The notes beneath the pieces are model-generated. The model worked only from the letters and a program-made list of their open reading frames with translations. It was not told where the DNA came from and ran no database searches. From Austropuccinia psidii (taxonomy: Eukaryota > Basidiomycota > Pucciniomycetes > Pucciniales > Sphaerophragmiaceae), in contig JALGQZ010000004.1 of NCBI GenBank assembly GCA_023105745.1, positions 11,310,451 to 11,374,450 on the forward strand: a stretch of 64,000 nt of DNA, read 5' to 3'. A program made the position numbers and the translations under genes. This document shows positions 2,040 to 64,000 of the stretch, piece after piece; the first letter of the stretch is position 1, and the number at the start of each line of letters is the position of its first letter.

Positions 2040-2046
2040 ATCCCCT
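804..2046. repeat. 1243-bp tandem duplication, copy 1
   Basis: First of three head-to-tail 1243-bp units. The unit starts at aaggagttccttg and ends at ggtccatatcccct. On the coding (minus) strand it holds RT and the first part of RNase H. Copies 1 and 2 look identical by eye. The join to unique sequence on the left is at the [10 protein letters not shown] motif of RNase H. Confidence 0.95.
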
Positions 2047-3282
2047 AAGGAGTTCCTTGTCATGAATTTCATAGTTGAGTTCAGCTGGTGAGAGCTTGCG
2101 ACTATCAAATGCAATGGGATGCTTTCCTGAGTCATTCACCTGACTCAGTACAGCACCCAAGGCATAATCAGAGGCATCAGTCTCTACAATAGTTCGGAGA
2201 GAAGGATTAAAGTGAGAGAGGATAGGAGCAGTGGTGAAAGCTTCTTTGAGTATCTGAAACTGACTAAGAGCTTCCTCATTAAAGATAAAGGGAGAATCTT
2301 TTTTGAGGAGGGAAGTGAGAGCAGAGATTTTTTTGGAATAATTTTTAATGAAACGATGATAAAAGTTGGCAAAGCCAAGAAAAGATTGGAGGGCCTTGAT
2401 GTTCTTGGGCTGAGGCCAATTGAGTATTTGTTGAACTTTTGAAGAATCCATCTTGAGGCCATCACTTGAAACAACATAGCCCAAGTATTCCACACTTGAG
2501 GCATGGAATACACACTTGGAGGCTTTAGCAAACAAATTATTGTCTCTCAGTCTTTGGAGAACAGAGGCCACATGTTTAACATGTTCATCCAAAGAGCTAG
2601 AGAAGACCATAATATCATCTAAGTACACTACAACAAAAATATCCAAATAATCTGCAAAGATATCATTCACAAGATTTTGGAATGAAGCTGGAGCATTGGT
2701 TAAGCCAAATGGCATAACCAAATACTCATAACTGCCATATTTGGTTCTAAAGGCAGTTAAATGCTCATCCCCCTCTTTAATTCTCAGGAGATTATAAGCA
2801 CCACGCAGATCTATCTTGGAGAAGATAGTAGCACCGTTAAAGACGGTAAGAAGCTGATTCATTGGAGGAACAGGATACCTGTTCTTCCTGGTGACAGCAT
2901 TAAGTTTGCAGTAGTCAACACACAAACGAAGACCACAATCCTTTTTCTTAACAAAAAGGACAGGTGCTCCTGTTGAGGAGGAGCTTGGTCTGATGAAACC
3001 TTTCTCTACATTCTCTGAAATGTAGGCCCGCAGTGTTTCTGACTCATTCTTTGATAAAGAGTAGATAACACCAACTGGAGGTAGAAGACCCTCCAGTTCG
3101 ATATGATGATCACAGGCACGGTGTGGAGGAAGTTTCTCTGCTTTCACTTTGGAGAATACATCCAAATATTGGTGATAAGCAGGAGGGACGACCTTCAACA
3201 CAGTTTCAATTTCTTCTGGCTCTTCCTCCTCATCCAACTGCTCCTCCAGGGATGCATGAAAAGATAAGGGAGGAAGGTCCAT
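1987..3282 (-). pseudogene. RT / partial RNase H fragment of element A (copy 2)
   Basis: This is copy 2 of the duplicated pol segment. It reads from MDLPPLSF at 3282 through the RT motifs ([36 protein letters not shown]) to the start of RNase H, then loses frame at the junction with copy 1 and stops at 1987. The open frame also extends upstream to 3378, but those residues are out-of-frame sequence from the neighbouring copy. It has no independent function that I can see. Confidence 0.8.
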
Positions 3283-3289
3283 ATCCCCT
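2047..3289. repeat. 1243-bp tandem duplication, copy 2
   Basis: Second unit, in direct orientation, starting exactly 1243 bases after copy 1. Because 1243 is not a multiple of three, each junction puts the RNase H frame out of register; reading through gives a short nonsense tail ([11 protein letters not shown]) and a stop. Confidence 0.95.
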
Positions 3290-4615
3290 AAGGAGTTCCT
3301 TGTCATGAATTTCATAGTTGAGTTCAGCTGGTGAGAGCTTGCGACTATCAAATGCAATGGGATGCTTTCCTGAGTCATTCACCTGACTCAGTACAGCACC
3401 CAAGGCATAATCAGAGGCATCAGTCTCTACAATAGTTCGGAGAGAAGGATTAAAGTGAGAGAGGATAGGAGCAGTGGTGAAAGCTTCTTTGAGTATCTGA
3501 AACTGACTAAGAGCTTCCTCATTAAAGATAAAGGGAGAATCTTTTTTGAGGAGGGAAGTGAGAGCAGAGATTTTTTTGGAATAATTTTTAATGAAACGAT
3601 GATAAAAGTTGGCAAAGCCAAGAAAAGATTGGAGGGCCTTGATGTTCTTGGGCTGAGGCCAATTGAGTATTTGTTGAACTTTTGAAGAATCCATCTTGAG
3701 GCCATCACTTGAAACAACATAGCCCAAGTATTCCACACTTGAGGCATGGAATACACACTTGGAGGCTTTAGCAAACAAATTATTGTCTCTCAGTCTTTGG
3801 AGAACAGAGGCCACATGTTTAACATGTTCATCCAAAGAGCTAGAGAAGACCATAATATCATCTAAGTACACTACAACAAAAATATCCAAATAATCTGCAA
3901 AGATATCATTCACAAGATTTTGGAATGAAGCTGGAGCATTGGTTAAGCCAAATGGCATAACCAAATACTCATAACTGCCATATTTGGTTCTAAAGGCAGT
4001 TAAATGCTCATCCCCCTCTTTAATTCTCAGGAGATTATAAGCACCACGCAGATCTATCTTGGAGAAGATAGTAGCACCGTTAAAGACGGTAAGAAGCTGA
4101 TTCATTGGAGGAACAGGATACCTGTTCTTCCTGGTGACAGCATTAAGTTTGCAGTAGTCAACACACAAACGAAGACCACAATCCTTTTTCTTAACAAAAA
4201 GGACAGGTGCTCCTGTTGAGGAGGAGCTTGGTCTGATGAAACCTTTCTCTACATTCTCTGAAATGTAGGCCCGCAGTGTTTCTGACTCATTCTTTGATAA
4301 AGAGTAGATAACACCAACTGGAGGTAGAAGACCCTCCAGTTCGATATGATGATCACAGGCACGGTGTGGAGGAAGTTTCTCTGCTTTCACTTTGGGGAAT
4401 ACATCCAAATATTTGTGATAAACAGGAGGGACTACCTTCAGCACAGTTTCAATCTCTTCTGGCTCTTCCTCCTCATCCCACTGCTCCTCCAGGGAGGCAT
4501 GAAAAGATAAAGGAGGAAGGTCCATATCCCCTTGAAAGAGATGAAGTGGTGATATAGCAACATCTTCTCCAACATCTTTTATCTCTTTGAATACTTCATC
4601 TCTTAATGGAAGTAA
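3230..4615 (-). pseudogene. RT / partial RNase H fragment of element A (copy 3)
   Basis: This is the pol copy still next to protease. The frame is the same as that of the protease segment but is cut off from it by two adjacent stop codons (TAG then TAA, 4616-4621). After the stops the reading is [18 protein letters not shown], then MDLPPLSF at 4525, acidic residues ([14 protein letters not shown]), and the RT core with YLDDI. It loses frame at the junction with copy 2 after KELL and ends at 3230. Substitutions in its first 45 codons distinguish it from the other two copies. Confidence 0.8.
3290..4532. repeat. 1243-bp tandem duplication, copy 3 (with a divergent block)
   Basis: Third unit, next to the protease side. 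Most of it matches copies 1 and 2, but about nine substitutions fall within 4396-4512, a stretch of about 115 bases. They change, for example, [11 protein letters not shown] in copies 1 and 2 to [11 protein letters not shown] here. Confidence 0.93.
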
Positions 4616-12775: not shown

Positions 12776-13694
12776 TGTTTGAAGATAACCCAACAGAAGA
12801 CAACCAAGCTACTGTTTAGAGATTGGTGGAAGAAACTTGTCAAAGTTCTCCAACACCAGTTATCACCAAAAGAAAGAAAGCTAAGAAATTAGACTTTCCA
12901 GGACCCACCATTCAAGACTCTGAAGGTGAGCACTTCTTTTATAATTGCCATAAAAAGAATTTTTATCGTAAAATACTTTTATTTCTTATTTTCTTAAATT
13001 ATGACTACCAGAAGAGGTTCCCAATACTCCATCCAATCAGATGGAGCTGGACTCAGAGGTAGAACTGATCCCTCAAAAGGGAAAAGAAAGGGCAATATCC
13101 CCAGTGGAACAGAATCCACACAAGAAAGTGCCTTATCCCAAAGGAAAGTCCCAGAAATGCCCATGATATCTGAACCTGAATTGGAGCTAAGTATGAGTAA
13201 CTCAAATAGGTACAAATCACATTCAGAGGGCTCAAATAGACATCTACATGAGCCAGTACAAGCAGTATTACACAGTGTACAAGGACAAAGATTGGGAAAT
13301 GCTGCCTCAAATACACCAAGGAGTGATGAACTCCTGGCACATCCTGAAAAAGTTCCTCAAAGAGGAGGAGATAGTGAAATACTCCAATGGATGGAATCCA
13401 CTGTCATCCAAGCCTCAAATCAAAAAAATCAAGGATTACCACACCAAAAAGAGGGAGGCAACCAAGGAAGAAGCCCCAGTAGCTTCTACCAGCAAGCCTC
13501 AAGCCAGCCCACTTCCCCAAGAAGGGAAGAAGAACAAGAAAAAGCATTGGAGGAAACCATATTCCCCAAGCTACAGGATCCCAAGAATCCAAAAGGATGC
13601 CATGGACAATGTTTTCAACATGGCCAGAACCTTGATGGAATTCAAGGACAAGGAAGAGCAAAGAATGAGACAACCTCATTTCCCAAAGAAATAA
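12776..13694 (+). pseudogene. Overprinted spliced accessory ORF of element B (broken)
   Basis: The predicted exons are 12776-12925 (150 nt), 13012-13143 (132 nt) and 13240-13694, the last two lying in the +1 frame over gag. Intron 1 (12926-13011, GTGAGC to CTACCAG, 86 nt) contains the gag ATG at 13001. Intron 2 (13144-13239) keeps the acceptor CAAATAG, but its donor now reads GAAAGT instead of GT. Exon 1 carries a TAG at 12817-12819. The protein is basic and Trp-containing, with MSQYKQYYTVYKDKDWE, HQGVMNSWHILKKFL and, at its C-terminus, YRIPRIQKDAMDNVFNMAR. These align with the intact frame of element C. Its function is not known. Confidence 0.65.
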
Positions 13695-16600
13695 CCTTGT
13701 CCAAAGATGTTGTAAATACTTTAACAGAAATTAAAAATAGTGTATTACCTCTAAAAGAAATTAAAGATAGTTTATTATCACTACAAGAAATAAATAACAA
13801 TTTATCTTCTTTAACAAAAATTGTTGTGCAAAACAAGAAAGAAATTTACAACATTAAGTTTATTGTTGAAAATAATAAACCAAAGAATTTAATTGACAAT
13901 ACTCAAAAATTAATACAAGGACAACAAGAATTGTATAAATACATAAAAGATATCAAAGACAAGACTTTGACAATCAATTATGATGTGAGTATTGACAATC
14001 TTACAGAAAAATTAAATAAATTAAGTATTTCTGTAGAAAAATTTGAAGAAAAGACTTCATCACACCAAAAATTACTTTTGGACCATGTGGAAAAAAGTGA
14101 TGAAGCAAGAATGCATCTGAAAGATGATATTCAGAGTGAAATAAGGCTTATTACTGAAAAAATGGATAAAATTAATGAGGCTAATTTAAATATGCCAAAG
14201 TTATCAACTCCATTTTCTCATATAAGAAGCCCTGTTTAAGCAAAAGAGGAATTATCAAATCCTTTCATAACAGACTTGAGTCACCAAGATAATAACCAAG
14301 TCTTAATGAAGGAAGCACCTCAATTGAAGGAATGGCCAACATTCACAGGAGAAGGTGAATATGACCACATGTCATTTATTAAAACAATTGACATGTTACA
14401 AGAAGACTATGCCATACCAGATGAATTAATCACTGCAAGATTACATTCATTGTTTGAGAAATCTGCAAAAAGATGGTATTATGGCATAAGACAAACAAAT
14501 GGTAAAAATACCTGGTCTTGGTGGAAACAAGAAATAATCACCAAGTGGGCAAATGATGCCTGGAGGTATAAGCTAGAAAATGCATTTGAAAACTCTTTCT
14601 TTGACCCAGAGAAAGACAAACCTTTAACTTGGTTCTTGAAACAAGTTGAAAGGCTTAATGCACTGTACCCAGAAATGTCACAAAAGATGGTGCACATGAA
14701 AATACTTAAAAAATGTGGAGGGGAACTAGAACATGCCCTAAGAAGCAGATGTATAGAACCATGCTCCACAGAAGAGTATATAAATTCACTAGAAGATATA
14801 GTGACAAGAACAAAAATTGGCAGGACTTGGAAAAAATTGGACATTAAAAGCCCAAATAAACCATTTATCAAAGAAGATAAATCAAAAGAATCCTTTAAGC
14901 CCAATACATCCAACAATAATGAGCAAAGAAAATGCCATAAATGTGGAGGTATTGGACACTTAGCCAATAATTGCCTTAAAAAAGCAAAGATTAATGAAAT
15001 TGTGGAAACAGAAAACCACAATGACAAAGAAGAAGAATCTGACTCTGAAAAAGAGACAGAAGAATCAGAAAGCTCTGAAAGTGATGAAATCAATATAATT
15101 AATGCACAAATTAATAATATTGATATAATTTATGAAGTACTGGATGTTAATTCAAACTTACCACAAGTTGGAACATCTGACACAAACCTGACAAACATAC
15201 AAGATGCCAAAATGTATAGAACCAAACCTGCAAGAGGAATGGGATATACAGCTGGAAAATCAAGTATAAGTATTGTTATGGTTGATAACCAAGAAGGAAA
15301 AGTTAACTTGGATACAGGAGCATATTGCACTTGTGTTGGCAAAAGTTATTTAAAAACCATTGTCCCAAACTGGCAAGAATAACTTATGCCAATACAAGGT
15401 GTCAAATTTAGTAGTGCAAGTGAGAGCATGAAGCCCCTTGGAATAATTGATTTAACACTAATTTTTCCTCATCCCTCACAATGTGTCAGAATTAAAGTAG
15501 AGTTTGTAGTAATGGACAACTGTAGTAGTAATCATTTCATACTTGGGAATGACTACTTATCAATCTATGGTATAGATATCTCCAACCAAAAAGACAGATA
15601 TTTAACCATAGGAGATAACAAAAGACAAAACTTTGGCTTCTTAAATAACAAAAAACAAATCACAGTTATTAAGAAGGAAGAAAAAATTCCAGAAAAAGAA
15701 CTTTTTATATCTGAACAACTTAAAGAGGCAGAATTCAATCAAGAATTAACAGAAAAAATGAAAGAAAAATTGATTGACCTCTTATTTAAGTATAAAAATG
15801 CCTTTGCAACTGACAAAGAGCCACTAGGAGCCATAATTGGCCATGAAGTGGATATAATTATTAATGTAGAAAAGCCTTACCCACCTTTATTAAGAAGACC
15901 TGCTTATCCAGCCAGTCCAAGAGCTAGAGAAGCCTTAGAGGTGCACATTAAAGAATTAATGGACCTTGGAGTATTAAGAAAGGTTGGACATAATGAACAA
16001 GTAGAAGTTACTACACCTGTCATTATAACTTGGGATAATGGAAAATCAAGGATGGTAGGAGACTTCAGAGGCCTGAACACCTATACCATTCCAGACAGAT
16101 ATCCAACACCAAGAATCCATGAGACATTGACCCAATTGTCACAAGCTAAGTTCATCACAGCTATGGATGCTCTTAAGGGTTTTCATCAAAATGTTTTAAC
16201 AGACAATTCCAAGAAACTACTAAGAATAATAGTCCATTGTGGAATTTTTGAATACTTAAGAATGCCATTTGGGATAAAAAATGCACCTTCCCAATATCAA
16301 AGAATGATGAATACCATATTCCCTGAAGAATTATCAGAAGGATGGTTAATTATCTATATTGATGATATCATAGTTTGCTCAGAAACTTGGGAAAATCACC
16401 TTACAAGACTAGAAAGGGTACTACAAAAAATAGTCCAAGTGAATATGAAAATTTCCTTGAAAAAGTGTCATTTTGCATATAGTGAATTAAAAGCACTAGG
16501 ACATGTTGTATCTGGACTTAGTCTAGGCATAGACAAAAATAAAGTAGCAGCAGTACTACTCAAACCAATGCCTCAAACCAAAAAATAAATGCAATCATTT

Positions 16601-29500: not shown

Positions 29501-32440
29501 CCAAAGGTTCTTTGTCAGATGAAAATGCTTCTTTGTGGTCATACAAAAGGGAAGAAATTTCATTTTCCTGTTTATCATTCAGATGAACGCTTATTTCAGC
29601 TTCATTCAACTGTTCAGACTTGAATTTCTCTAACTCTAAGTTGACTGGTGATACTTTGTTCACTGTAATTTTTCTTTCAAATGGTAAAAAGGCAAACTTT
29701 TGGCTCTTATTGTATCCAATAGTAAATTATCTGTCCTTTTTGTTATGTAAGTCTATGCCATACATGATCAAATAGTCATTTCCCAATATAAAATGGGTTC
29801 TAGAGCAATTTTCCATAGCAAAAAATTCAACAGTAATTCTTAAATTTCTATTAATATTTGGAAATATGACAGTAGTATCAAATATTCCCAATTCTTTTAT
29901 TGGATTACTTGCACTATTGAATTTTATGCCATCAATTGGTAACAATTGGTCTTCAAAATTTGGTGCACAAGTTTCAAGAAAAGATTTACCAACACAAGAG
30001 CAGAAGGCTCCTGGGTCAATTAAAAGTTCAGTGGGTTTATTGTTGATTACCACTTCTGTTATACAGGAGTTACCAGCTGAATAACCTTTTCCCCTTTGTG
30101 TTTTGGTCTTCATAAGTTGTTCATCTTGAATTTCTGACAAATCAAGTTGAAAATTGCTTAATTGTGGCAAGTGGGAATAAGATTCCATGATTTCAAAGGT
30201 GGCATTGATATTTTCTATATCTTTTGAAGATTTGGAAAATATTGATTACTTATCATCTGAATTTTCTTCAATTATATTATTATCTTTTTCAACATCAGGT
30301 TCTTTTTCAATGTCAATTTCATTGATTTTTCCCCTTTTTGTACATGTATTGACTGAGTGGGTGGTGCTTTGGCAAATATGGCACTTTCTGATTATATCTA
30401 CAGATTTATACTTTATATTATTAGAATTTTCTTTGGGATTTCTGTCCATATAATCTTTCAAAGGTGTATTAAGCCTTCCTTTGAGATTCACCCTACTAGA
30501 GCCAATTCTGGTTCTGGTGGTTACTTCTTCTAATATATTGATAATATCTTCTGCTGAATATTGTGCCGTAGTCCTGCTTTTGACAGCATGCTCTAAGGCA
30601 CTGCCATATTGTCTCAGAACTTTCCTTTGGATCATCAATTCTGACATGTCAGGATACAATTCTGTTAATCTGTCTTTTTGTTGGCAAAACCTTGGTAAAG
30701 CTTTGTCTTCAAAAGAATTAAATTTGGAAGATTCAAAGGCTGTTTCCACTTTAAACCTCCACACATGATTGGCCTATTTGTTGATAATTTGGGTTTTTTA
30801 CCAAGTCCAACTTTGGTGTCCATGTGCTTGTCTTAATTTGATATACCATCTGTGGGCTGATCTGGTAAACGGGGTGTTAAATACTACTGTTACCAATCTG
30901 TCAGGCAATTCAAAATCCTCTTTAATCATGTCAATACCTCTGATGAATTCCATATGGTCATATTCTGCTTCACCACTGAAGTGAGCCCATTCTTTAAGTT
31001 TTGTTACTTCTTTTAAAAGTCCTTGGCCAATTGATGGTTCCAAGCTATGAAAAAAGTAGAAAATTTATTACTTAACTGTTAATTTTCAGCATCCAATACT
31101 TGTAGATTGGGAATTCCTGTACCCTCATTTTGATTCAGAGGTGTAGACATTATTGGTACATTGTTCATTATCTGTTCAATATCATTCATTTTACTGTTGC
31201 TACACCTTTGGGAATTTCTGAATTAATGTTTGATGGCTTTTATTGAATTTATTACTTCAATTTTGTACATTTCTTCTCTATGTGTCAATTCTTGCCATAA
31301 ATCTGTTTGTCTTGTATTATCAGCAGCAACTTGATTCAATTTCATTGTTAATTTTGATACTTCTTTTTGTGAAGCATCAAAACACTTTTTCAAGGCTATT
31401 GTATATGTCTTCACTTCAGTAAATCAATCTGAAATGTAATCAAGGAGTTTCATGTTATCTGTCTTGATAATATTTATGGCTTGTTTAGTTCATGTTTCAA
31501 TTATTTCATCAATATTGAATTTAGAATATTTGTCTGTTAATTTTTTGATAATGGCAGATTGTTCATTTAACTTATTTCCAAAAGAATCGTCTTTATTAGG
31601 AGTTTTAATTTTTCTTAAAGCTTTCTCAAAGCACATAAGTGTTTCATTTATTTGGCTCAGACTTAAGTTGTTTGTTTGAAGATTGTTACAAATGGATGAA
31701 TGTTTATCAGAAACATGACTTTTTACATCATTTATAGCTTCATACAGCTCTGGGATAGAATCAAAAATGTCAGAAGTCATTTCTGATATTTTAATCTGGC
31801 TTCCTCCTTTTTCTGTAATTTCATAATTGTTCTTGCCATCTGAAATACAATTTCCATGGCATCCTGCTGAATCTTTGGGATTCATTAACCCTGGCTGTAA
31901 GCGTTTGTGGATGGTGCCTTGCCTTTGCCCTTGTTCTGAGCGTGTGGCTGCTTTTTCATGTTGGAATCGCTGCTTCCGGATACTGGGGCTGATTCTGGCA
32001 CTTGCTTGGGTGGTGGAGGGTTGTTTTTCCTCCATTCTGTTGTTAAAGGAATCATGCTTTTCTTTTCCATCAATGGATGCAATCCATTGAGTAACTTGCA
32101 AGTGTTGGGATGGCCCAGGAATTTTCTCACAGTCCGGTAAGAGTTCATGAAGTTTTTCCGGGGATCTTCAAGGGTCTGGTAGTTCTTGTGCTGCAATGCA
32201 TTGTTGTAAGCCTTCTGTCTGGCTTTTTGTATGTCAACTGAGGCTTCTTGTGGAGGTGTCAGCTCTGTTTGGAGGTAAAACAGTATTATCAGCTTCAGAA
32301 TGACATAATTTATCAATTTGGAAGTCATCAACCGACCCTTGTCCTTCTGTAACTGATTGGCTTCTGCCATAATCATGTCTATGACCTTTTTGGGAGATTC
32401 TTGAGGGGTTATAGCTGGCTCCTGATCTCGTTGAAGGCAT
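26516..32440 (-). pseudogene. gag-pol: Gag-Pol of element D (many stops, at least two frameshifts)
   Basis: It starts MPSTRSGASYN at 32440. Recognisable parts in order are the capsid-like region (30798-31043, EWAHFSGEAEYDHMEFIRGI, continuing 30246-30764) and the zinc knuckle CHICQSTTHSVNTC (about 30371-30412). The protease motif is altered from DTGA to DPGA (LLIDPGAFCSCVG, about 30015). RT spans 28385-29182 and beyond, with [13 protein letters not shown] and [10 protein letters not shown]. RNase H is in pieces, and the integrase core retains HIDWVTGLPPGG and SDRDPKF (27365-27664). The chromodomain-like tail is 26516-26746. The frame changes between about 31223 and 31043 and between about 29388 and 29182. 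It cannot be functional. Confidence 0.9.
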
Positions 32441-32688
32441 ATTTTATGATTAAAAAGCTTTAAATAGTAGTTTTACATCAAAAAACGTACTATTGACCAA
32501 ATTTGTTGCCTTCTGAAGGGTATTACTGATATATAAGCTAATTAATTCAGAGGAAATTGGTTCTGGTTGATTGTTATGAGTTATAATAATTTTACTATTA
32601 TGGTAAGAATTCACAGTACTTGCGGGAATAATGCTTGTTACTGTTGAGGCTATTTCAATTTTTTCTTGTATTACCATGTTTTCAGACA
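31777..32688 (-). pseudogene. Overprinted spliced accessory ORF of element D (decayed)
   Basis: The predicted exons on the minus strand are 32688-32491 (198 nt), 32426-32337 (90 nt) and 32264-31777. Intron 1 (32490-32427, GTACGT to AACGAG, 64 nt) includes the gag ATG at 32440. Intron 2 (32336-32265, GTCGGT to AAACAG, 72 nt) has the same phase as in C. The last exon keeps the signature NFMNSYRTVRKFLG and, after two adjacent stops near 31885, IPKIQQDAMEIVFQMART. It is clearly homologous to the B and C frames and is read +1 relative to gag, as they are. Confidence 0.65.
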
Positions 32689-52136: not shown

Positions 52137-53904
52137 TGTGAACCTTTGAGATATGACCACATACCCAAAGAGGTCACAAGAAATATTTAATATAATTATA
52201 CATTAAAAATAAGTACCTCAAAGCTACAAAAATACCATAAATTGGTATAAAACTTGGTTTGAATTAAAAACCAATAAATAAACATGTGAAATAAATTATA
52301 CCATTGGATTCCCCATGGTAAAATACACATATACCATTTTTATGGCATATCTGTAAAGTCAATATTGAATAAGTTATAAGTAATAATACCTTATAAAAAC
52401 CACAAATCCTTATTTATTTCAAACACCAATGAAACAACATGTAAAATAAATGGTACCATTGGATTCTCCATAAAAATCCACACATAAAACAATTAATAAG
52501 CTAAGCTTCAAAATTAATACTTAAGGAATTAACCTGAATATATGCACTTTTTTGGTCAACACATATATTCAAGAATTTTAGCTAATATCTCTTGAATTAT
52601 GCATGATAGAGTGATGAACCAAAAATAAATTCATCACGTAATTATTGTAGGAATACAGAAATGAATTTTATTTCACAAGTTATAAACAAGGTTAAAATCT
52701 GTAAGGAATTATTGATTAAAATCAACACAGCTGTTGACCACTTTGTTGTGAAAGTGGTCCAAACTTAAAAATAAGAAGACAGTTGGATTCTACTAGTTCA
52801 TTCGTGAATAATGATGTATTTTTTATTAAAATATTCAAGGTATAACCCCTTGAAATCATAGTTTGAAGTTAAAAATATTAAATTTCGACAGAAAAGATGA
52901 GTTACAAGAAAAATCATCAAAAATAGAGTTTTGATGATGTAATGAAATGCTCTTGGAATCATAATAAGGTTATGCCAAGCTATCAGAATTCACTCTCTGA
53001 ATTTCTGTAGCATGTAAATCTTAAAATTTATTAAGGATCAAAGCTTGAGCTTAATTCGATCATTTATGATCACTCACTGTAACCTTAAATGAAGTTTAAC
53101 AGTCATATAAGTGATACAATTGGTGAATACTATTAGTTTATGATTAAAACTAATAAAATACACGAAATTTGGGGTTCTGCAAAGCCTTTGACGTCATCAA
53201 ACTTAGAGTTATAGTGATAACTCTAAATAATGGCGTAATAATGATGTAATGTGGTTTGATCATGATGTAATCATCACCAAACCTTAAAATATTGATCAAT
53301 TCCAGTGGATAAAATCAGTAAACGTCTACTAGAAGCCTTTTGGACTCTAGGAGGGAGGTATTTACTATAAATAGAGCCCTTTTTGCTCTGTTTTCCCCTC
53401 AGACGCATCAAAAACATTAAATCAATACAATTAAAAAGGTAATATCTTTATTCTTTCTATATAAAACTTCTATATTATTAAAGACCAAAGATCATCTTAT
53501 TATAATCATCAATTTTGACGTGATTAAATCATTTGTTTAATTTTTTTTGTTAAAAATCTCTCTAAAACTCATTTCCACATAAAAATCAAGAATATTTGTA
53601 ATTTTCTCTATTTTTTATTGTAAATACAATTTCGATAAGTTGTATTTACATTATTTGGCGTAAAATATCTCAAAATTATTATATTAAGTATTAAAAGTAG
53701 GTTATTTTCTCTATATTATTCTTTTAATAATTCTTCAATTAATATAAATAGTATTTATATTAGGTTATAACTTTAATATTGGTAATATTATTGTTATTAA
53801 TTGTTTTTTATTAATAAAAAACAATTCTTTACACCTTTATTATTTGTTTGTAACAATAATAAAGTGCCATTAAATATATTAATATATTTATTTTATTATA
53901 TTAT
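52137..53904 (+). repeat. J: B-family LTR interrupted by element C
   Basis: It starts tgtgaacctttgagatatg and follows the B LTR, including the TATA box (53366-53373) and the AAAAAG|GTAATA junction. At 53904 it is cut by C; the missing roughly 250 bases should lie beyond C, outside the window. The left flank is aaagc. Confidence 0.85.
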
Positions 53905-55826
53905 TATGAGCCTTGAGGTATATTTTACATACCCAAATAGGCCACAATTATCTTAAAAAGAGATTTTGAATTATGCATAACTCATAAGTCATGCATATAT
54001 CCAAAATTCATCATTTTCAATTTCAGAAAAGATGAATAACTTTTTATTGAGTAAGTAAATCCATGGATTTAAGGCCAGATTTGGATTCTACACAAAAATT
54101 CACCTAGGGTAGCTCCATAGAGTGAATAAGCTCAATTTAAGTATTTAAGGTGGTAAAATGGAAAATACTTCAATACCACATCATTAATACCACATAAAAG
54201 ATCCGTGAAAATTTTTGTTTTTCTTGATTTTTAGCCAAAATAATGGGAAAGTGAGAAATCCCATGTTACATATACACTAAGAATAGTGTTATGCATGTTT
54301 TGAGCACTTAATATTATGGTATTCTTACATAGACTTTTGGTACACCCATAGTGGATATCTCACTTTAAGCTTAAATTACTATTTTGACGTAAAAATTAGG
54401 CAAGGGGGACAAAAGACATCAAAGAGAGCCAGGGTACCCAACTTCTGAGGCCTCAGAGGCGTGGATAGCTCCAGAGCATGGATCCATGGCTCATCTTGGC
54501 CCAATTGGTAAACTAAAACTCTTTGGGAACTTGGTTACCAAGTTACACCTACTGTAATCATAAGAAAAATAGCAAATAACCTGCTATTTTGACGTGCCAA
54601 GGAGGTAATAAGCTACTTAGGTTCCTGTAACCACGTCAATTCTTGATGACTTTCCATGACTAGACCCTAAAAGAGTAATTAAACCCTTTTGGGATCCATA
54701 TTCATTGATTTACCTCATAGCAACCAGCAAAATACTGCTATTTGCAATTCTACGTAGAAATGAGGTAAAAACTTCAAAAATTCATTAAAAATACAATTCT
54801 TAATGAATCTTCCTGAAACTTTCAGGACCAATGAAGAACTGTATTATCTATGGTACAACCAAAAAGAATTATGGTTTTACTAGTAAAATTAAAGGTTTTC
54901 CTTACAGTCCATTTTTGACCATTCTACGTGAAACACTGAATCTTCAAAAATTCACAGTAATTACAACCTGTGATGAAACTGGCAATAACATTGATAACTT
55001 TGAGAAATCAATGATTATTTTAGAATAAAAGAAGATTTACAGATGTTACTCCTTTTATTCTTAATCATATTGGGGTTGGTAGTCACGTAAAAGCATCAAT
55101 TAAGTAATTATGATAATCTTACGTGACAACAGATGATGCAATCATTAATCCAAAAGGGTTTATTGTTTTCTCACTCACTGGTTTTTCAGTTTGCTCCATG
55201 GCACGCCTCTGTGAGCTGTTGTTGACTTAAAAGAAGCCTATTCTTGCTGTTTTTTCCGTATCATCATCTTATCAATTTATTAAATCATTATTACCAACAA
55301 GTAAGTATTAGTTAAAGCTATTCTTAAGTGTTTTAAATCTTTCCAAATCATCCAGAAAGACGTGAAATCCTAGAATCCAACTATATATTGTTGTAATACT
55401 GTTATAAATCCTTTTGATCCCTTAAATCCACAATTCCACGTCAAATTTCTCTACTCTTATCTATCAATAAGTTCTTTGGAGTATTAGTGAGTCATTTATT
55501 CTTAATTCTTAAAGTTTTTCTCTAGTAGTGGTTTTCTTCAAGAATTATCTTTATAATGATTCTTGCAAAAGATAATTATATATTAAAATAATTTTATTAT
55601 TTTAATAAAGAAGTTTTTATTATTAAATTCTTCTTGTAATTGATTCTAGTAGACAATTACTTGCTCACTGTTAAAATCACAAGTAGTGCTTAACACGTGA
55701 AAGAAATAATTTTTTAATTATTTAATTGTGGTTATAATAATACTTTATTATTATATTTCATAAGAACAGACATAGTACTGTTGATTAATAGTAATATTAT
55801 CATCAGTTTCATAGTCACATCTTACA
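53905..55826 (+). repeat. 5' LTR of element C (1922 bp)
   Basis: It starts TATGAGCC (TGTGAGCC in the 3' LTR) and ends CATCTTACA. It contains about ten ACGT cores between 54383 and 55700. A TTAAAA sequence near 55225 stands about 75 bases before a consensus 5' splice site GTAAGT (55301). Confidence 0.9.
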
Positions 55827-56219
55827 TTTGGGGGCCTGGCCGTGTTTTTTGAACCTTGTACCCTTAATTAATATATTTTTAAGCTCTAAAATATATTAAT
55901 TTAATAATTTTTTCTTTCATTTTAAAGTTAAAATAATTCTTATTTTTGAAATTGTTTTGGAAATCTTTTCATTGAGGAATTTGGTTTAATTTTATACTGT
56001 TTTTACACGTGGCTTTTTCACATCCAAAAACTTATAAAATTATTCTTTGAGTTACTCTGCATTCATTTTCATTCAAAATCTTAAATTTTAATTTTTTTTT
56101 TCTTTAAAAAGAATAATTTTTTTTAATATTAAAAAATAATAAAATTCATAAAAAATCTTTTAAAAATATCTTAAAACACAAAAATAATTTCTTTTATCAT
56201 ATTTTTTTTTCTCTTTAAG
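55301..56219 (+). other. Candidate leader intron of element C (LTR donor to accessory exon)
   Basis: The donor CAACAA|GTAAGT lies in the LTR. The acceptor is TTTCTCTTTAAG|TGTCTT at 56219/56220. Removal would delete the end of the LTR and the primer site and bring an A next to TG, creating an ATG in the accessory frame. The same acceptor block occurs in B (12775/12776) and D (32689/32688). Confidence 0.45.
55829..55844 (+). other. Primer binding site of element C (tRNA-Pro type inferred)
   Basis: TGGGGGCCTGGCCGTG, two bases after the LTR, is identical to the site of element B. Confidence 0.6.
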
Positions 56220-57207
56220 TGTCTTTAATCAAATACTGTGCAGCTGGTAACAGACTCAGTAAAAGATACATCAATAGTCCAGAATCTTCAGAAGCAGAAT
56301 CTGAAGACAGTATTGAGGTGCAGATTGCTAAAAGAGGCACCTTATTCAACTCAGAAAAAGCTAAATTACCACCAAAAGGTGTGTATTTTATCTTATATTT
56401 TCACCTTTTATCTTTAAATTGACATGAAAATGGTTCATACCAGAAATGGAAGCAACTATTCAGTCCAACCAGATGGATGTGGACAAGGAAGAGGCAAGAC
56501 CAAATCCAGAAGTGCCAAATCTTCCACAAGAAAGACACATCTGGAGGATGCCAGAGTTGCCCCCCATTCCCCAAGGTCTGTACCAACAGATTTTGACGTA
56601 AATTTTGAGCCTGAACTGATTTATGGTAATACTTCCAGGGCTGAACCACTTTCAGGTGGCAGAAATAGAAATATATCAATGCCAGTACAAAAACTGGTTC
56701 AGAGCAGCCAAGGAAGAGGAGTGGGAAATCTGCCCAAGCATTTGGCAGGGGGCCATGAACTCCTACTTACACATCAAGAGCTTTCTGGGTCAGGAGAAGA
56801 CCATAGAACTCTTAGGAGGATGGAGCCCTCTGTCTTGCAAAGACAAGGTCAAAGAGATAAAGAATTGGTTGAAGAACCAAAGTCTTTTATCCATAGACCA
56901 GAAGAAAGAGTTGGAAATGACTCCAGCTTTGGAGACAGAGGCACCAGTGGCATCTACCAGCTCCAAACCAGCTCCAGAAGCGCCCAAGGACAAGCCCAAA
57001 GGACCTCAAAAGAAACAGAGAGGTCCCAAGAACCATCAAGGCAAGGGCAAAGGCAAAGCCAATTGGCACAGACCTTACCCACAAGGGTACAGGATCCCCA
57101 AATTGGAGCCTTCAGCCGTGGACAGTGTCTTCAATATGGCCAGAACTCTTATGGAATTCACAGCCAAGGAGCAGGAAAGGATGAACAGGACTTTTCCACG
57201 CAAATAA
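56220..57207 (+). CDS. Overprinted spliced accessory protein of element C (intact)
   Basis: The predicted exons are 56220-56378, 56444-56575 and 56669-57207. Intron 1 (56379-56443, GTGTGT to ATACCAG, 65 nt) includes the gag ATG at 56424. Intron 2 is 56576-56668 (GTCTGT to AAATAG, 93 nt). With the A from the leader exon (55300) the frame is ATG plus 275 more codons and a stop, total 831 nt, without interruption. Exons 2 and 3 lie in the +1 frame over gag. The protein has an acidic Ser-rich N-terminus and a helical Trp-rich core (WFRAAKEEEWEICPSIWQG, then MNSYLHIKSFLGQEK). A Lys/Gly/Pro-rich basic stretch follows, which may bind nucleic acid. The conserved C-terminus contains YRIPKLEPSAVDSVFNMAR. 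I do not recognise the fold. It could be an accessory or regulatory protein or a minor particle protein. Confidence 0.62.
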
Positions 57208-60200
57208 ATGATGTACATAGAAGTATTAGTGTAGAAATTGGCAAACTTGAGTCAAAGTTAAAGCAAATTACATTAGACATCAATGATTTAAAGAAAAATG
57301 ACAAGCAACATTCTAATTGGCATCAATTGACAACTGTCACCCTTGAGTCAATTAGCAATGCTTGTGAAAGAATTGAGACCCAATGTCAAAATAATGACAC
57401 AGAGGATCCTTCCATTTTTAAAGTAAATGATAGACTTAAAACTCTTGAAGACCATGTCTTACAAATAGTTAAGAACACCAATCAATTTGCTATACATTTA
57501 GCAAAAAGTGACAGTGAGAGGCAGAAATTGAAGAATGATATAATTGCAAGTGTGGAGCAAATTCATATGAATCATGAACCACATATACCAAGACATTCTA
57601 CACCTTTGACTGAAGAAAAACTTTCTGTCAAAGAAAGTTTGACTCCATTCTTAGGAGAAAATGCCTACTCTGCAAGAGATATTCCCAAAATAGAAGAATG
57701 GCCAACATTCTCTGGTGAAGGAGAACATAACCATATTGAATTCATCAGAACTATTGATATGTTGCAAGAAGACTTTAATATACCTGATGAAATCATAGTG
57801 GGAAAATTACACTGTTTGTTTACCAGAACTGCAAAGAAATGGTATTACAAAATGAGGATTGATCATGGTAAACATGACTGGTCTTGGTGGAAATCTGAAG
57901 TGATTACCAAATGGGCCAATAATTCTTGGAGGTTTAAAATGGAGAATGCTTTTCAAAGTGCCATCTTTAACTCAGAAAAAGACAAACCACTTACTTGGTT
58001 CTTCAAACAAAAAGACAGATTATCTGCTTTACACCCAGATATGTCTGACACTATGATTAATATGAAAATATTAAGAAAGTGTGGAGGAGAACTGGAACAT
58101 GCTATCAAAAGCAGATGTGTGGAACCTTGTTCAACAGAGGACTACATTAATGCTATGGAAGATATCATTACCAGGACAAGAATTGGTAAGACTTGGATTA
58201 AAAACCCAATAGAGTCCAAAATAGTCTCAAAGATTCCTAGAGAGGAAAGAAGACCAGAAAGACCTGTCTTGAAGTGTCATAAATGTGGAAGTACTTCACA
58301 TTTAGCCAACACTTGTCCTAAGAAGACAAAAATCAATGAAGTTCAAGTCATTGAAGAAATTTGGTGTACTGAAGAGAAAGAGGAGTCTGATCAAGATTCT
58401 GCAGTCTCTGAAGATACACCAGTGGAGGACTATCCCATTGAAAACATTTCAGCTTTCTTTGAGGTCACAGAAGTCCATACCCACTTGCCACAGTACAGTG
58501 AAGATTGCTGCAACCTGATCAATATCCAAGATGCCAGAATGTGTAAAACAAAACCTGCTAGAGGAAAGGGTTATACTGCTGGAGCATCATGTATCACATC
58601 AGTTCTGATGAGTGATATTGAAGCCAAAGTAAATTTGGATACAGGGGCATTTTGCACTTGTGTTGGCAAAGATTATCTCCAAATTATACTTCCTGAATGG
58701 AAAAACCATCTATTACCAATAGAAGGTGTACAATTCAGTAGTGCCAGTAACAATATGTACCCCTTGGGCATATTGGACACTAATATTGTATTCCCACATC
58801 CAGCAGGAAGTGTAAGAATGAAAACTGAGATTGTAGTAATGGATAATTGCACATCTCAGCACATCATTCTTGGAAATGATTACTTAAATATTTATGGTAT
58901 TGATATAAATAACCATAAAGACAGATATTTCACAATTGGAGATAACAAGAGACAAAAATTTGCTTTCTCCAATATGCCAAAACAGATATCTGTAGTATCT
59001 TCTGTCAAAGATACTTACAAAGATGAATTTGTGACTAATCAACTTGTTGAAGCACAAATTAATCAATCATTGTCACCAAAGATGAGGAATGAGCTGATTA
59101 ATGTGTTATACACATATAAAAATGCATTTGCCTCTGATAATGAACCATTAGGCGCTATAAGAGGACATGAAGTTGATATTACTCTTAATATTGACAGACC
59201 ATATCCTCCAGTACTTAGAAGACCAGCTTATCCAGCCAGTCCCAGAGCTAGAGAGGCCTTGGAAAAACATATCCAAGAGTTGATCCAACTTGGTGTGCTA
59301 CGGAAAGTAGGCCATAATGAGGAAGTTGAAGTGACAACACCTGTTATTATTGCATGGCATAATGATAAGTCAAGAATGGTTGGAGATTTTAGAGCTTTGA
59401 ATACCTACACAGTTCCAGATAGGTATCCAATCCCTAAAATTCAAGAAACCTTGACTCAATTGTCTAAAGCCAAGTATATAACATCAATGGATGCATTGAA
59501 AGGCTTTCATCAAAATGTTTTGACGCCTAAAGCTAAGAAATTACTTAGAATTATCACCCACTGTGGCATTTTTGAGTATCTTAGAATGCCATTTGGCATT
59601 AAAAATGCTCCATCTCATTATCAAAGAATGATGAATACCATCTTCCCCACAGAATTGTCTGAAGGATGGTTTATCATTTATATTGATGATATTATTATAT
59701 GTTCTGACTAATGGTCTTTGCACCTTGAAAGACTTGCAAGAGTACTTCATAAAGTTGCAGAAGTGAACATGAAAATTTCACTTAAGAAATTCAATTTTGG
59801 TTTTGAAGAACTCAAAGCATTAGGACATGTTGTTTCTGGTTTGAGCTTGGGTATTGACAAGAATAAAGTAGCAGCAGTGTTACTTGAACCAATACCCCAG
59901 AATAAAAAAGAAATGATGTCTTTTCTTGGGTTTGCCAGTTACTATAGGCAACACCTGAAAGATTTTGCAATTCTAGCCAAATCACTCTATAGAATCTGTG
60001 ATCAACAGACTGTATTTGAGATGACACAGGAAAGAATTAATGCTTATGAGAAGATAAAGAAAGCCCTTACAGAAGCACCTTTACTCCTCATGCCTGACTG
60101 GAATATTCCTTTTAAATTGTACATTGATGCATATGGAGATGGACTAGGGGCAGCCCTACATCAAGTCCAGATTATTGATGACAAACCTACAGAAGGACCA

Positions 60201-62132
60201 GTTTGTTATATCTCAAGACAAATCAAACCAACAGAAGCCAGATATGGTGCAAGCCAAATGGAGTGCTTATGTTTGGTATGGGCACTTGAGAAACTACACT
60301 ATTATCTTGATGGCAGTGTTTTTGAAGTGATAACTGACTGTAATGCCGTAAAATCACTTCTTAACATGAAAGCTCCCAACAGACATATGTTGAGATGGCA
60401 AATAGCCATTCAAGAATATAGAGGAAACATGACTATAGTTCATAAAGCAGGAAACATTCACAAGAATCCTGATGGACTTAGTAGATGGGCTTTAGCCAAC
60501 ACTCCTGATAACCCAGCTTATGTACCTTTGGAAGCTGAACCACAGATTCCAATTGAAGGAATTAACATAACTGATATTGGGACTGAATTCTTTGAAGAGG
60601 TCAGAGAGTCTTATAAACAAGACAATAATTGCCATATCTTGACTTCTTTATTAGATAAAGACTGCAAAGATACATCTTTAGTTAATGCACTTGATGAAGT
60701 TTGGAAAAATTCCTATTCTGAAGGAAGATTTCACTTGTTTGATGGGATTATTTACCATAGAACAAAACATTCTTGTGTGATGACACTGTGTAGTAGATTG
60801 CTTATCAATACCATTCTTCATGAATGCCATGATAGCATTTACTCTGGACACCTATCAGAAGACAGAACACTTGAAAAGGTGAAGAACTGTGCATGGTGGC
60901 CATCTTGGAGAAAAGAAACCATTGAATATTGCCATACCTGTGATAGATGCCAAAAAGCAAACAGGAGTACAGGCAAGAAATTTGGATCGATGATCCATAT
61001 TCAAGAACCAAAATCCCCTTGGGAAGTTGTTCACATGGATTGGGTCACAGCACTTCCTCCAAGTGGTGACAAAAGCTATAATGCTTGTTTAGTCATTGTA
61101 GACAGATATAGCAAAACTCCCATATTCTTACCATGTCATAAAGATGACACTGCTATGGATACAGCTCTTCTTTTATGGAGTAGAGTTATTTCTCATACAG
61201 GGTTATTTAAGAATATCATAAGTGACAGAGATCCCAAATTCACATCTGCACTTTGGACCAATCTTCATACATTGTTTGGGACTAAGTTATCATTCTCTAC
61301 AGCATATCACCCTCAAACAGATGGGCTAGCAGAGAGGATGATTCAAACTTTAGAAGACATGATCAGGAGATTTTGTGCTTATGGATTAGAATTCAAAGAC
61401 TCAGATGGCTTTACCCATGACTGGTGCACTCTGATACCTGCATTAGAATTGGCATACAAGACATCAGTCCATTCTTCCACAGGACAAACTCCTGCTATGT
61501 TAGAAAAAGGATGGAATCCAAGACTCCCAGCAGACACACTGAGGAAAGACTTGATTGACATTCATCCTACAGCTTCCAGCTTCAAATTAATGCTTGATAA
61601 AGTAAAACACCATGCAAAACAGAGTATGGATGATGCTTTTGATTATGCAAAACAGAAGTGGGACAACAGTCATAAAGTACCAGACTTCAAAGTAGGGGAC
61701 TTAGTTTTAGTTTCAACCTTGAATTTTAATAATATCAAAGGCCCAAAGAAACTTAAAGATTCTTATGTAGGACCTTTTGTTATTGTTGCTTTACATGGAA
61801 CCAATGCAGTTCAAGTGGAATTGAGTGGTGAATTGGAAAATAAACACCCCACATTTCCAGTCAGCTTGATAAAGCCTTATCAACCAGCTGAAAAAGAATT
61901 GTTTCCCTTAAGAAACCCAACTCCTTTAACTGTACCACCTGTGGAACAGAATGAAGACAAAAAGATAAAGAAAGTCATTAAAGAAAGGAGACTTAGGGGT
62001 AAAAATCAAAGAGAATATCTTGTCAGATATAGAAATCCAGTACATGAAGATGAATGGATGGCAGAATCAGAAATACCTGACTCAGATAAACTCTTAAGAA
62101 GATTTAGACATGAAGGAAGGCCACAAGCCTGA
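56424..62132 (+). pseudogene. gag-pol: Gag-Pol of element C (single in-frame stop)
   Basis: One frame of 1903 codons from ATG (56424; a second ATG at 56430) to TGA, broken only by TAA at 59709-59711, just after the RT catalytic IYIDDIIICSD. The parts by residue are a disordered Gln/Ser/Arg-rich N-terminus to about 260, a coiled-coil-like stretch around 270-330, capsid-like 425-600 (EEWPTFSGEGEHNHIEFI) and a zinc knuckle CHKCGSTSHLANTC (about 617). Protease NLDTGAFCTCVG lies at about 737, with RT about 920-1095. After the stop come RNase H ([14 protein letters not shown]), integrase (HHCC about 60820-60960; HMDW, SDRDPKF, GLAERM) and a chromodomain-like tail ([16 protein letters not shown]). 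B and D have no stop at this site, so it is decay rather than design. Gag and Pol share a frame, so no frameshift is needed. Confidence 0.92.
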
Positions 62133-62271: not shown

Positions 62272-62976
62272 TGTGAGCCTTGAGGTATATTTTACATACC
62301 CAAATAGGCCACAATTATCTTAAAAAGAAATTTTCAATTATGCATAACTCATAAGTCATGCATATATCCAAAATTCATCATTTTCAATTTCAGAAAAGAT
62401 GAATAACTTTTTATTGAGTAAGTAAATCCATGGATTTAAGGCCAGATTTGGAGTCTACACAAAAATTCACCTATGGTAGCTCCATAGAGTGAATAAGCTC
62501 AATTTAAGTATTTAAGGTGGTAAAATGGAAAATACTTCAATACCACATCATTAATACCACATAAAAGATCCATGAAAATTTTTGTTTTTCTTGATTTTTA
62601 GCCAAAATAATGGGAAAGTGAGAAATCCCATGTTACATATACACTAAGAATAGTGTTATGCATGTTTTGAGCACTTAATATTATGGTATTCTTACATATA
62701 CTTTTGGTACACCCATAGTGGATATCTCACTTTAAGCTTAAATTACTATTTTGACGTAAAAATTAGGCAAGGGGGACAAAAGACATCAAAGAGAGCCAGG
62801 GTACCCAACTTCTGAGGCCTCAGAGGCGTGGATAGCTCCAGAGCATGGATCCATGGCTCATCTTGGCCCAATTGGTAAACTAAAACTCTTTGGGAACTTG
62901 GTTACCAAGTTACACCTACTGTAATCACAAGAAAAATAGCAAATAACCTGCTATTTTGACGTGCCAAGGAGGTAAT
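62272..62976 (+). repeat. 3' LTR of element C (first 705 bp)
   Basis: It starts TGTGAGCCTTGAGG and follows the 5' LTR closely until 62976, where K is inserted. The last five bases before K, gtaat, are the expected target duplication. Confidence 0.9.
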
Positions 62977-64000
62977 TGTAAGGTTTGACTATGAAACAAT
63001 AAGTAAAAATTACTAATTTATCACTTATTGTACTCTGAATGTCCTTATAAAATGAATAAATAAGATTAAAATAATAATAATAAAGAAATATTATTATTAT
63101 GGCGTAAAATTATTATATTATTAAATAAATATAATAATATAATTAATATTATATAAAAATATAATATTATAAATAATATATTAATATAAAATAATTAATA
63201 TATTATAAATCTCTTTATTATTGTTACCAACAAATAATAAAGGCGTAAAAAATTGTTTTTTATAAATAAAAAACAATTAATAACAATAATATTACTAATA
63301 TTAAAGTTATAAATTAATATAAATACTATTTATATTAAATAAGAATTATTATGAGTAATAATAAGAGAGAAATTATTATAATAAGATGAAATAACCTACT
63401 TTTAACACTTAAGATAATAATTTTGAGTTATTTTACGCCAAAAGAATATAATACAACCTTTTCAAATTGTATTTACAATAAAAATAAAGAGAATTTACTA
63501 AATTTCTTGATTTTACGTGGAAATGAGCTTTTTAGAGAGATTTTTAGCAAAAACAATTAAAGAATTGATTTAATCACGTAAAAATGGTGATTAATGACAA
63601 GATGATCTTTGGTCTTTAAGAATATAAGAGTTTTATATTTAAAGAATAAAGAAATTACCTTTTATTTAATTGATTTAATGTTTTTGATGCGTCTGAGGGG
63701 AAAACAGAGTAAAAAGAGCTCTATTTATAGTAAATACCTCCCTCCTAGAGTCCAACAGGCTTCTAGTAGACGTGTACTGATCATATCCACTGGAATTTAT
63801 CAATATTTTAAGGTTTGAGGGTGATTACATCATGATCAAACCATATTACATCATTATTACACCATTATTTAGAGTTATCACTATAACTCTAAGTGTGATG
63901 ACATCAGAGGCTTGGCAGAACCCCAAATTTCGTGGATTTTATTAGTTTTAATCATAAACTAATAGTATTCACCAATTTTATCACTCTTAAGACTGTTAAA
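62977..64000 (-). mobile_element. K: B-family LTR inserted in the 3' LTR of element C, runs off the window
   Basis: It is the reverse complement of the B LTR, starting tgtaaggtttgactatg. The TATA box is at 63722-63729 on the minus strand. About half the LTR is present, so I cannot tell a solo LTR from a full element. Confidence 0.88.

Follow-up and report, generated by a model that had tools for sequence, protein, structure and literature searches.

A probable multi-exon accessory gene overlapping the start of gag in Ty3/Gypsy elements of the myrtle rust fungus Austropuccinia psidii

A 64,000-nucleotide stretch of the 1.015-Gb genome of the rust fungus Austropuccinia psidii (GenBank assembly GCA_023105745.1, contig JALGQZ010000004.1, positions 11,310,451 to 11,374,450 of the forward strand; hereafter the window) contains three Ty3/Gypsy retrotransposons (plus strand: C and B; minus strand: D), in each of which the beginning of gag is overlain by an open reading frame (ORF) in the +1 frame. 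We propose that these elements probably carry a multi-exon accessory gene sharing its DNA with the start of gag, together with a splice switch between the Gag and accessory frames. The observations behind this proposal are coding constraint, exon boundaries and phases shared among the elements, conservation of splice sites, and the position of the gag AUG. An earlier reading made from the DNA letters alone (the sequence-only reading) had described the +1 frame as a single ORF with an internal ATG; judged from the anatomy of the DNA, it is very probably the final exon of a spliced gene that has three or more, and position 56220 of the window, which that reading gave as the start, is the first base of an exon lying upstream of gag.

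Two coding frames over the same bases

The +1 frame is open at 56620-57207 (195 codons) in element C and at 13197-13694 in element B; in element D, on the minus strand, it is open from 32472 to an adjacent pair of stops near 31885 and then resumes to 31777. The sequence-only reading had held that these frames encode related proteins and that conservation is higher in them than in the Gag frame across the bases they share; both statements stood up. A tblastn comparison of C with B gave 41% identity in the +1 frame (1e-39), against 31% (1e-22) for the best gag-frame match over the same part with B as the query. Identities in the +1, gag, and third frames of a codon alignment were 79/164, 50/157, and 52/157 for C and B; 54/165, 27/157, and 30/157 for C and D; and 51/161, 32/154, and 28/154 for B and D, in an alignment built in the +1 frame and hence favouring it. 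Gag-frame identities were thus close to the third-frame level, but gag substitutions were milder by BLOSUM62.

Because of this bias, the alignment was repeated in the gag frame. There, across the B-C overlap, identities at gag codon positions 1, 2, and 3 were 0.47, 0.66, and 0.68, making gag position 3, which is +1 position 2, the most conserved position, while in downstream stretches position 3 was the lowest. For exon 4 of the proposed gene the counts by position were 76, 106, and 109 out of 160; downstream they were 573, 635, and 384 out of 832 (p=3.3e-6). When half-overlapping windows of 40 codons were scanned along the aligned gag-pol without about 59708-60200, position 3 was ahead of position 1 by 3 or more of the 40 codons in 7 of 83 windows, all of them within 56634-57198, inside the +1 ORF. 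Conservation sets in at the exon 4 acceptor and not at an internal ATG. In addition, codons for the same residue were identical in 44 of 55 cases in the overlap versus 218 of 421 at 57600-59708 (p=7.4e-5), a test that excluded 57204-57600 (16/33).

A reading in which the +1 similarity is a by-product of Gag constraint can draw on the fact that the same bases lie in both frames and that the gag frame is open too. We give it almost no credence, since gag position 3 is the most conserved in the overlap, +1 scores exceed gag scores in all three pairs, and variants shared among genomic copies (below) do not lean towards synonymous changes when read as gag (1/4 and 1/5). Similarity through Gag alone, which the sequence-only reading had itself raised as the explanation that would undo its claim, was rejected, being already contradicted by the position 3 conservation and the +1 scores.

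Codon shuffles bear on the two frames together. When synonymous codons were shuffled under an unchanged Gag protein, the +1 frame was stop-free in 44/5000 shuffles for C and 156/5000 for B, so that its openness is not a matter of chance; when it was the +1 protein that stayed unchanged, a stop-free gag frame came out in 0/5000 (C) and 4/5000 (B). Because stop-free frames are rare in both shuffles, both frames are taken to be coding. The gene is therefore overprinted: constraint acts on each frame across the shared bases, more weakly on gag, where it is seen mainly in the stop-free frame. In the overlap Gag has a high share of Q, S, and G (0.32-0.37 of its residues there), few hydrophobic residues, and weak conservation. 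This composition lends something to the idea that +1 is the sole coding frame, with the true Gag starting downstream and the gag frame open by chance, yet such a reading is very improbable: chance openness was rejected by the shuffles with +1 fixed, and an AUG-poor leader ends at a gag AUG that is present in all 87 C copies compared.

A shared predicted exon-intron plan

One plan recurs in the three elements, which belong to diverged families: an acceptor after a pyrimidine run and followed by TGTYT, then exon 2, intron 2, exon 3, intron 3, and exon 4. The features are as follows.

Element C
55827..56219, plus strand: AT-rich leader without ATG, with a putative pyrimidine-rich splice acceptor at its end (AG at 56218-56219)
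56220..56378, plus strand: putative accessory exon 2, 5' of gag, entered and left in phase 1
56379..56443, plus strand: putative intron 2, containing gag start codons 56424 and 56430; splice sites kept in copies
56424..59711, plus strand: gag-pol open frame; stop in the reverse transcriptase (RT) at 59709-59711, then the same frame to 62132
56444..56575, plus strand: putative accessory exon 3, +1 frame, first ATG at 56446
56576..56638, plus strand: putative intron 3, 63 nucleotides, with two stops in the +1 frame if unspliced
56639..57207, plus strand: putative accessory exon 4, the +1 ORF studied here, with TAA at its end

Element B
12776..12925, plus strand: putative accessory exon 2, with one stop in the window copy
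12926..13011, plus strand: putative intron 2, containing gag ATG 13001 (DNA reading of the window element)
13001..14239, plus strand: gag frame, with more in-frame stops downstream
13012..13143, plus strand: putative accessory exon 3 (DNA reading of the window element)
13144..13209, plus strand: putative intron 3, GC-AG in 7/7 usable other copies; the donor of the window copy differs
13210..13694, plus strand: putative accessory exon 4, the +1 ORF with a tblastn match to C

Element D
32491..32688, minus strand: putative accessory exon 2, with ATG 32677; same join in 9/120 D-type protein models (text pattern)
32427..32490, minus strand: putative intron 2, containing gag ATG 32440 (DNA reading and D-type models)
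32337..32426, minus strand: putative accessory exon 3 (DNA reading of the window element)
32265..32336, minus strand: putative intron 3, 72 nucleotides, open in the accessory frame (DNA reading of the window element)
31777..32264, minus strand: putative accessory exon 4, with two adjacent stops in the window copy

Exon 2 measures 159, 150, and 198 nucleotides in C, B, and D, and exon 3 measures 132, 132, and 90, all multiples of 3; intron 2 measures 65, 86, and 64 and intron 3 measures 63, 66, and 72, and every intron is in phase 1. The intron 2 acceptor falls within the codons of a Gag Thr-Arg pair in all three elements, and the gag start codon lies within intron 2 in each of them (C 56424/56430, B 13001, D 32440). 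In D this acceptor was set at 32427/32426, where the D-type models join, and a candidate 5 bases further on was dropped for the same reason. All nine exons are GC-richer than the adjoining leader, intron, or gag sequence. Exon 2 has no stop in its accessory phase in C (shuffle P=0.023) or D (P=0.006); in B it has one (P=0.23).

Tests on further genomic copies

A loose first look returned 36,652 candidates with the C exon and 38,896 with the B exon; 150 of each were scored and all matched. For C, 88 loci were fetched including the window copy, leaving 87 for comparison; they came from 149 non-window exon 4 matches, 80 picked by hand and 7 by program, all of them top matches. Since choosing the C copies as top exon 4 matches biases the openness of exon 4, tests were directed at the parts outside the query: exon 2, exon 3, and the initial 128 nucleotides of exon 4. 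Lengths are given relative to the window copy, the 87-copy variant count leaves out variants found in exactly two copies, and the mutation model assumes a transition weight of 4.

Exon 2 differed in length in 14/87 C copies, always by multiples of 3. Intron 2 differed in 27/87, 26 of them by non-multiples of 3, and the leader in 86/87, 50 of them by non-multiples of 3, with leader indels lying partly in homopolymers and so inflating the contrast with exon 2. Exon 3 differed in 5/87 (1 non-multiple of 3) and intron 3 in none. The accessory frame of exon 2 was stop-free in 81/87 copies, the other two frames in 1 and 0. Splice sites were likewise retained: the AG before exon 2 (C 56218-56219) in 85/87 copies, the GT and AG of intron 2 in 86/87 and 87/87, and the GT and AG of intron 3 in 86/87 each. 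The gag AUG was kept in 87/87.

The sequence-only reading had suggested looking for selection across many copies, and in the accessory frame a pattern fitting it was found. In the accessory frame of the 87 C copies, variants shared by at least 3 copies numbered 13 synonymous and 5 nonsynonymous, versus 25 and 104 for singletons (p=1.3e-5). Against the mutation model the excess of shared synonymous variants was significant in exon 2 (p=0.0026) and at the exon 4 start (p=0.029). Exon 2 by itself had 6 synonymous and 1 nonsynonymous shared variants in the accessory frame versus 0/7 in each other frame, and the corresponding gag-frame ratios were 1/4 in exon 3 and 1/5 at the exon 4 start; the leader gave 6/21. 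An earlier count on 27 copies, with variants in at least 2 copies, agreed with this in exon 2 (4/2) and exon 3 (4/1) and gave 3 synonymous versus 4 nonsynonymous or stop at the exon 4 start. Read from DNA, mutations arising after insertion look roughly neutral, and variants spread by active source copies look as though they had been filtered for the accessory protein.

The window copy of B has no standard intron 3 donor and one stop in exon 2. All four B-type database models with a gag start (P0156, P0188, P0205, and P0211) implied a GC-AG intron in the B family. This donor, predicted beforehand for B intron 3, was present in 7/7 usable copies (L089-L094 and L096) from 8 stretches fetched, one of which was without the region. 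In the same seven copies exon 2 was 150 bases long with no stop or ATG, and intron 2 was 83-86 bases long; one of the seven had lost the AG before exon 2.

Database protein models

In three protein searches the best 120 of 907, 774, and 443 hits were listed, and the listed rows named A. psidii MF-1; the counts below were made by text pattern among the 120 listed in each search and are approximate. C-type models of 232 residues, which start just 3' of the gag start and skip the 63-base stop-bearing stretch, made up 24/120. An earlier exon, exon 3, was present in 56/120 C-type models, 48 of which join it straight to exon 4, and an exon upstream of gag was present in 19/120 D-type models.

Among these models are single-exon ones (148 residues in 47/120 for B; 150 residues in 11/120 for C), and those viewed start at an internal Met. 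They would fit translation of the accessory protein by internal initiation near or within exon 4 (56623, 56755; B 13248) from unspliced or subgenomic RNA, with exons 2 and 3 unrelated to it, as would the finding that constraint is strongest in exon 4. We regard this as unlikely, because exon 2, which lies outside gag, keeps its phase (no length change other than by multiples of 3 in 87 copies) with the shared-variant pattern of 6/1 versus 0/7, because conservation begins at the exon 4 acceptor, and because the splice sites are kept in 85-87 of 87 copies. A frameshift fusion of the +1 frame with Gag was rejected: C and B both stop at the same place, after FP(R/K)K, and the fused models P0050, P0078, and P0092 each join differently, which counts against such a fusion.

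Proposed mechanism and product

The proposed multi-exon accessory gene suggests a splice switch. The unspliced full-length RNA, which would also serve as the genome, would be scanned through a leader almost free of AUG to the gag AUG and yield Gag(-Pol). Because the gag AUG lies within intron 2, splicing would remove it, and exons 2, 3, and 4 would open as one phase 1 frame, +1 to gag; retention of intron 2 would give Gag. The leaders are consistent with this. Between the LTR (long terminal repeat) end and the gag ATG there are 0, 1, and 2 ATGs in C, B, and D versus 6.5, 8.0, and 5.8 in shuffled sequence (the count for C covers 55826-56423); the sum of 3 versus 20.3 was reached in 0/2000 shuffles, and for D alone in 58/2000. 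By plain count, the last 600 bases of the LTRs hold 1, 0, and 2 ATGs versus 10, 7, and 9 CATs in C, B, and D. These low counts agree with scanning of the unspliced RNA through a long leader as far as the gag AUG.

Exon 2 contains no ATG in C or B, and in each of the three elements the first ATG met from exon 2 on in the predicted spliced RNA belongs to the accessory frame (C 56446, B 13041, D 32677). A rather doubtful conjecture is that the accessory AUG is created only by splicing, when an exon 1 ending in A joins the conserved TG of exon 2. Exon 1 would then lie in the AUG-poor part of the LTR, with candidate donors at C 55301, B 11859, and D 33550, chosen as A-preceded from a wider list that also has a G-preceded one in the D LTR. 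Unspliced RNA would be nearly AUG-free up to gag, and one splice would make a start codon while the next would take the other away.

The C product has 232 residues from the first ATG, or about 255-286 if exon 2 is fully translated. Its predicted structure (mean predicted local distance difference test, pLDDT, 59.9) has helices at 47-93, 107-136, and 201-226, and a basic stretch carries a net charge of +9 over residues 161-200 of model P0002. At low confidence, this model suggests a helical middle, a disordered basic stretch, and a C-terminal helix; the earlier impression that the protein looks folded thus finds weak support. No Pfam family above cut-off was found for the accessory proteins scanned. 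No relative of solved structure emerged from a PDB profile search (best 0.2) or from Foldseek run with the low-confidence model on the PDB library (best E 9.6), and of 120 pattern matches to relatives in viral contigs, none was confirmed.

Since the product is basic and would be made only from spliced RNA, and by analogy with CERV and Rev (described below), we tentatively suggest that it might act on unspliced genomic RNA, in export, in intron 2 retention or splicing, or in packaging. That the same gene has another job, as a Gag partner, a particle nucleic-acid chaperone, or a suppressor of host silencing, is a serious possibility: its basic stretch would suit such roles, and there is no Pfam, PDB, or fold match pointing elsewhere. 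Against these other jobs stands, as analogy only, that early regulators such as CERV and Rev are expressed solely from spliced RNA.

Several observations weigh against the proposed gene, its splicing, or its suggested role. The gene is predicted here from the anatomy of the DNA and from selection, and so is the splicing of its RNA. An exon 1 donor was sought in C, B, and D, and no site could be aligned by eye across the families; the accessory start codon is uncertain in C and B for that reason. All three window copies carry lesions somewhere, and in D the AUG at 32677 precedes gag in the unspliced RNA. Of the 14 exon 2 length variants, 13 share one length, perhaps reflecting two events; the intron 2 lengths are few as well, distinct indels in the 27 copies numbering 1 in exon 2 and 5 in intron 2. 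Singletons are somewhat synonymous-poor relative to the model (25/129 vs 0.23-0.28), which sharpens the contrast with shared variants, and in the part of exon 4 within the query the 27 copies gave 2 synonymous and 4 nonsynonymous shared variants in the accessory frame, with no excess. Exon 3 shows little constraint: its shared variants (3/2) do not differ significantly from the model (p=0.10), by itself it has no codon-position reversal between B and C (21/24/20 of 44), and its B-C identity is 8/43 in the accessory frame versus 11/43 in gag. It appears in 0/120 B models, which may be explained by gene finders that expect GT missing a GC-AG intron. Intron 3 of D is also open unspliced and is retained in 73/120 D models versus spliced in 11/120, the rest being undecided. 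Finally, a gag-frame start is present in 8 C and 4 B models, and the function suggested above draws on analogy and a low-confidence structural model.

Relation to known systems

Overlapping spliced accessory genes are a mark of complex retroviruses, whose Rev- and Tat-type regulators are small and basic, are translated from fully spliced RNA, and lie across structural genes in other reading frames. They overlap env, while the rust gene overlaps the start of gag, and the likeness drawn is one of description.

The closest precedent, by analogy, is CERV of Cer1, a Ty3/Gypsy element of C. elegans. In the portions of its report drawn on here (PMC10309623), CERV comes from a spliced five-exon mRNA with exon 4 in a frame other than gag and is needed for export of unspliced Cer1 RNA. 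The sequence-only reading had treated overprinted accessory genes inside gag as generally foreign to Ty3/Gypsy elements, which, on this account of Cer1, was overstated. Like CERV as described there, the rust gene would be a Ty3/Gypsy accessory gene with a multi-exon mRNA (predicted here) and one exon overlapping gag out of frame. CERV, however, has exons 1-3 and 5 in the Cer1 polyprotein frame and takes its C-terminal half from the fifth exon (PMC10309623, same portions). Unlike CERV, the rust elements have overlapping exons in +1 to gag, one exon upstream, the gag AUG in an intron, and an accessory frame that ends within gag (57207). The rust gene therefore has neither the part in the gag frame nor the downstream C-terminal exon that would mark a member of the CERV family, a distinction drawn from gene plan, not from sequence comparison.

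Plant LTR retrotransposons carry additional ORFs beyond gag-pol, some from spliced RNA, according to passages of PMC7264820; as a difference from the rust gene, the word 'overlap' is absent from its main text. The plant element BARE has separate RNA pools for translation and replication and, unlike the rust elements, is described with one ORF (PMC3735527, in part). For fungi, a search of the literature on overprinted, overlapping, or spliced retrotransposon genes, with subscription journals mostly outside it, found no report of such a gene plan among the titles and abstract openings listed, and in a word search 'gag' did not occur in the main texts of two papers on rust genomes (PMC12210899, PMC8063080).

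If the proposed gene is real, it would suggest that splice-controlled accessory genes arise or persist well outside animals, with Cer1 the sole comparable Ty3/Gypsy case met. One annotated genome has hundreds of 'hypothetical proteins' (a single search gave 907 hits, of which 120 were listed) that would then be explained as pieces of a transposon gene, and the balance between Gag and a regulator in such an element would become testable. A GC-AG intron in an abundant fungal transposon family would also escape gene finders that look for GT only.

Elements and other features of the window

Assignment to Ty3/Gypsy follows from RT, RNase H, and integrase in that order (Pfam RVT_1 7.4e-15, RT_RNaseH 8.1e-27, rve 6.1e-9); a Gag zinc knuckle match was weak (0.024, under the Pfam cut-off). 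A further weak match, to a chromodomain at 61965-62108 (E 0.0019, also under the cut-off), sits C-terminally in the integrase part of C. Paired LTRs are 98.3% identical in B and 84.5% in D; in C the match is 99.0% across 703 bases. The LTRs of C are as follows.

53907..55826, plus strand: 5' LTR of element C; 703-base match of 99.0%, end set by the shared LTR-end/primer-site-like sequence
62274-62976, plus strand: truncated 3' LTR copy of element C, from the LTR pair match

Directly 3' of the LTR end in C, B, and D (55825, 12283, and 32912 on the minus strand) stands TTTGGGGGCC, likely the primer binding site of these elements. The pol of C has one in-frame stop (59709-59711) and the gag-pol of B three (14239, 15382, and 16588), so that the window copies of C and B are damaged despite LTR pairs that are 98-99% identical. 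Inverted pieces 87% alike lie around C at 53095-53905 and 63172-64000, which suggests a nested insertion and loss of most of its 3' LTR; the left piece (53095-53905) is an 88% match to a B-type LTR. Elsewhere in the window, 804-3589 holds three copies spaced at 1243 bases and sharing an identical 300-base stretch, and each repeat unit contains a minus-strand RT piece about 29% like the RT of element C.
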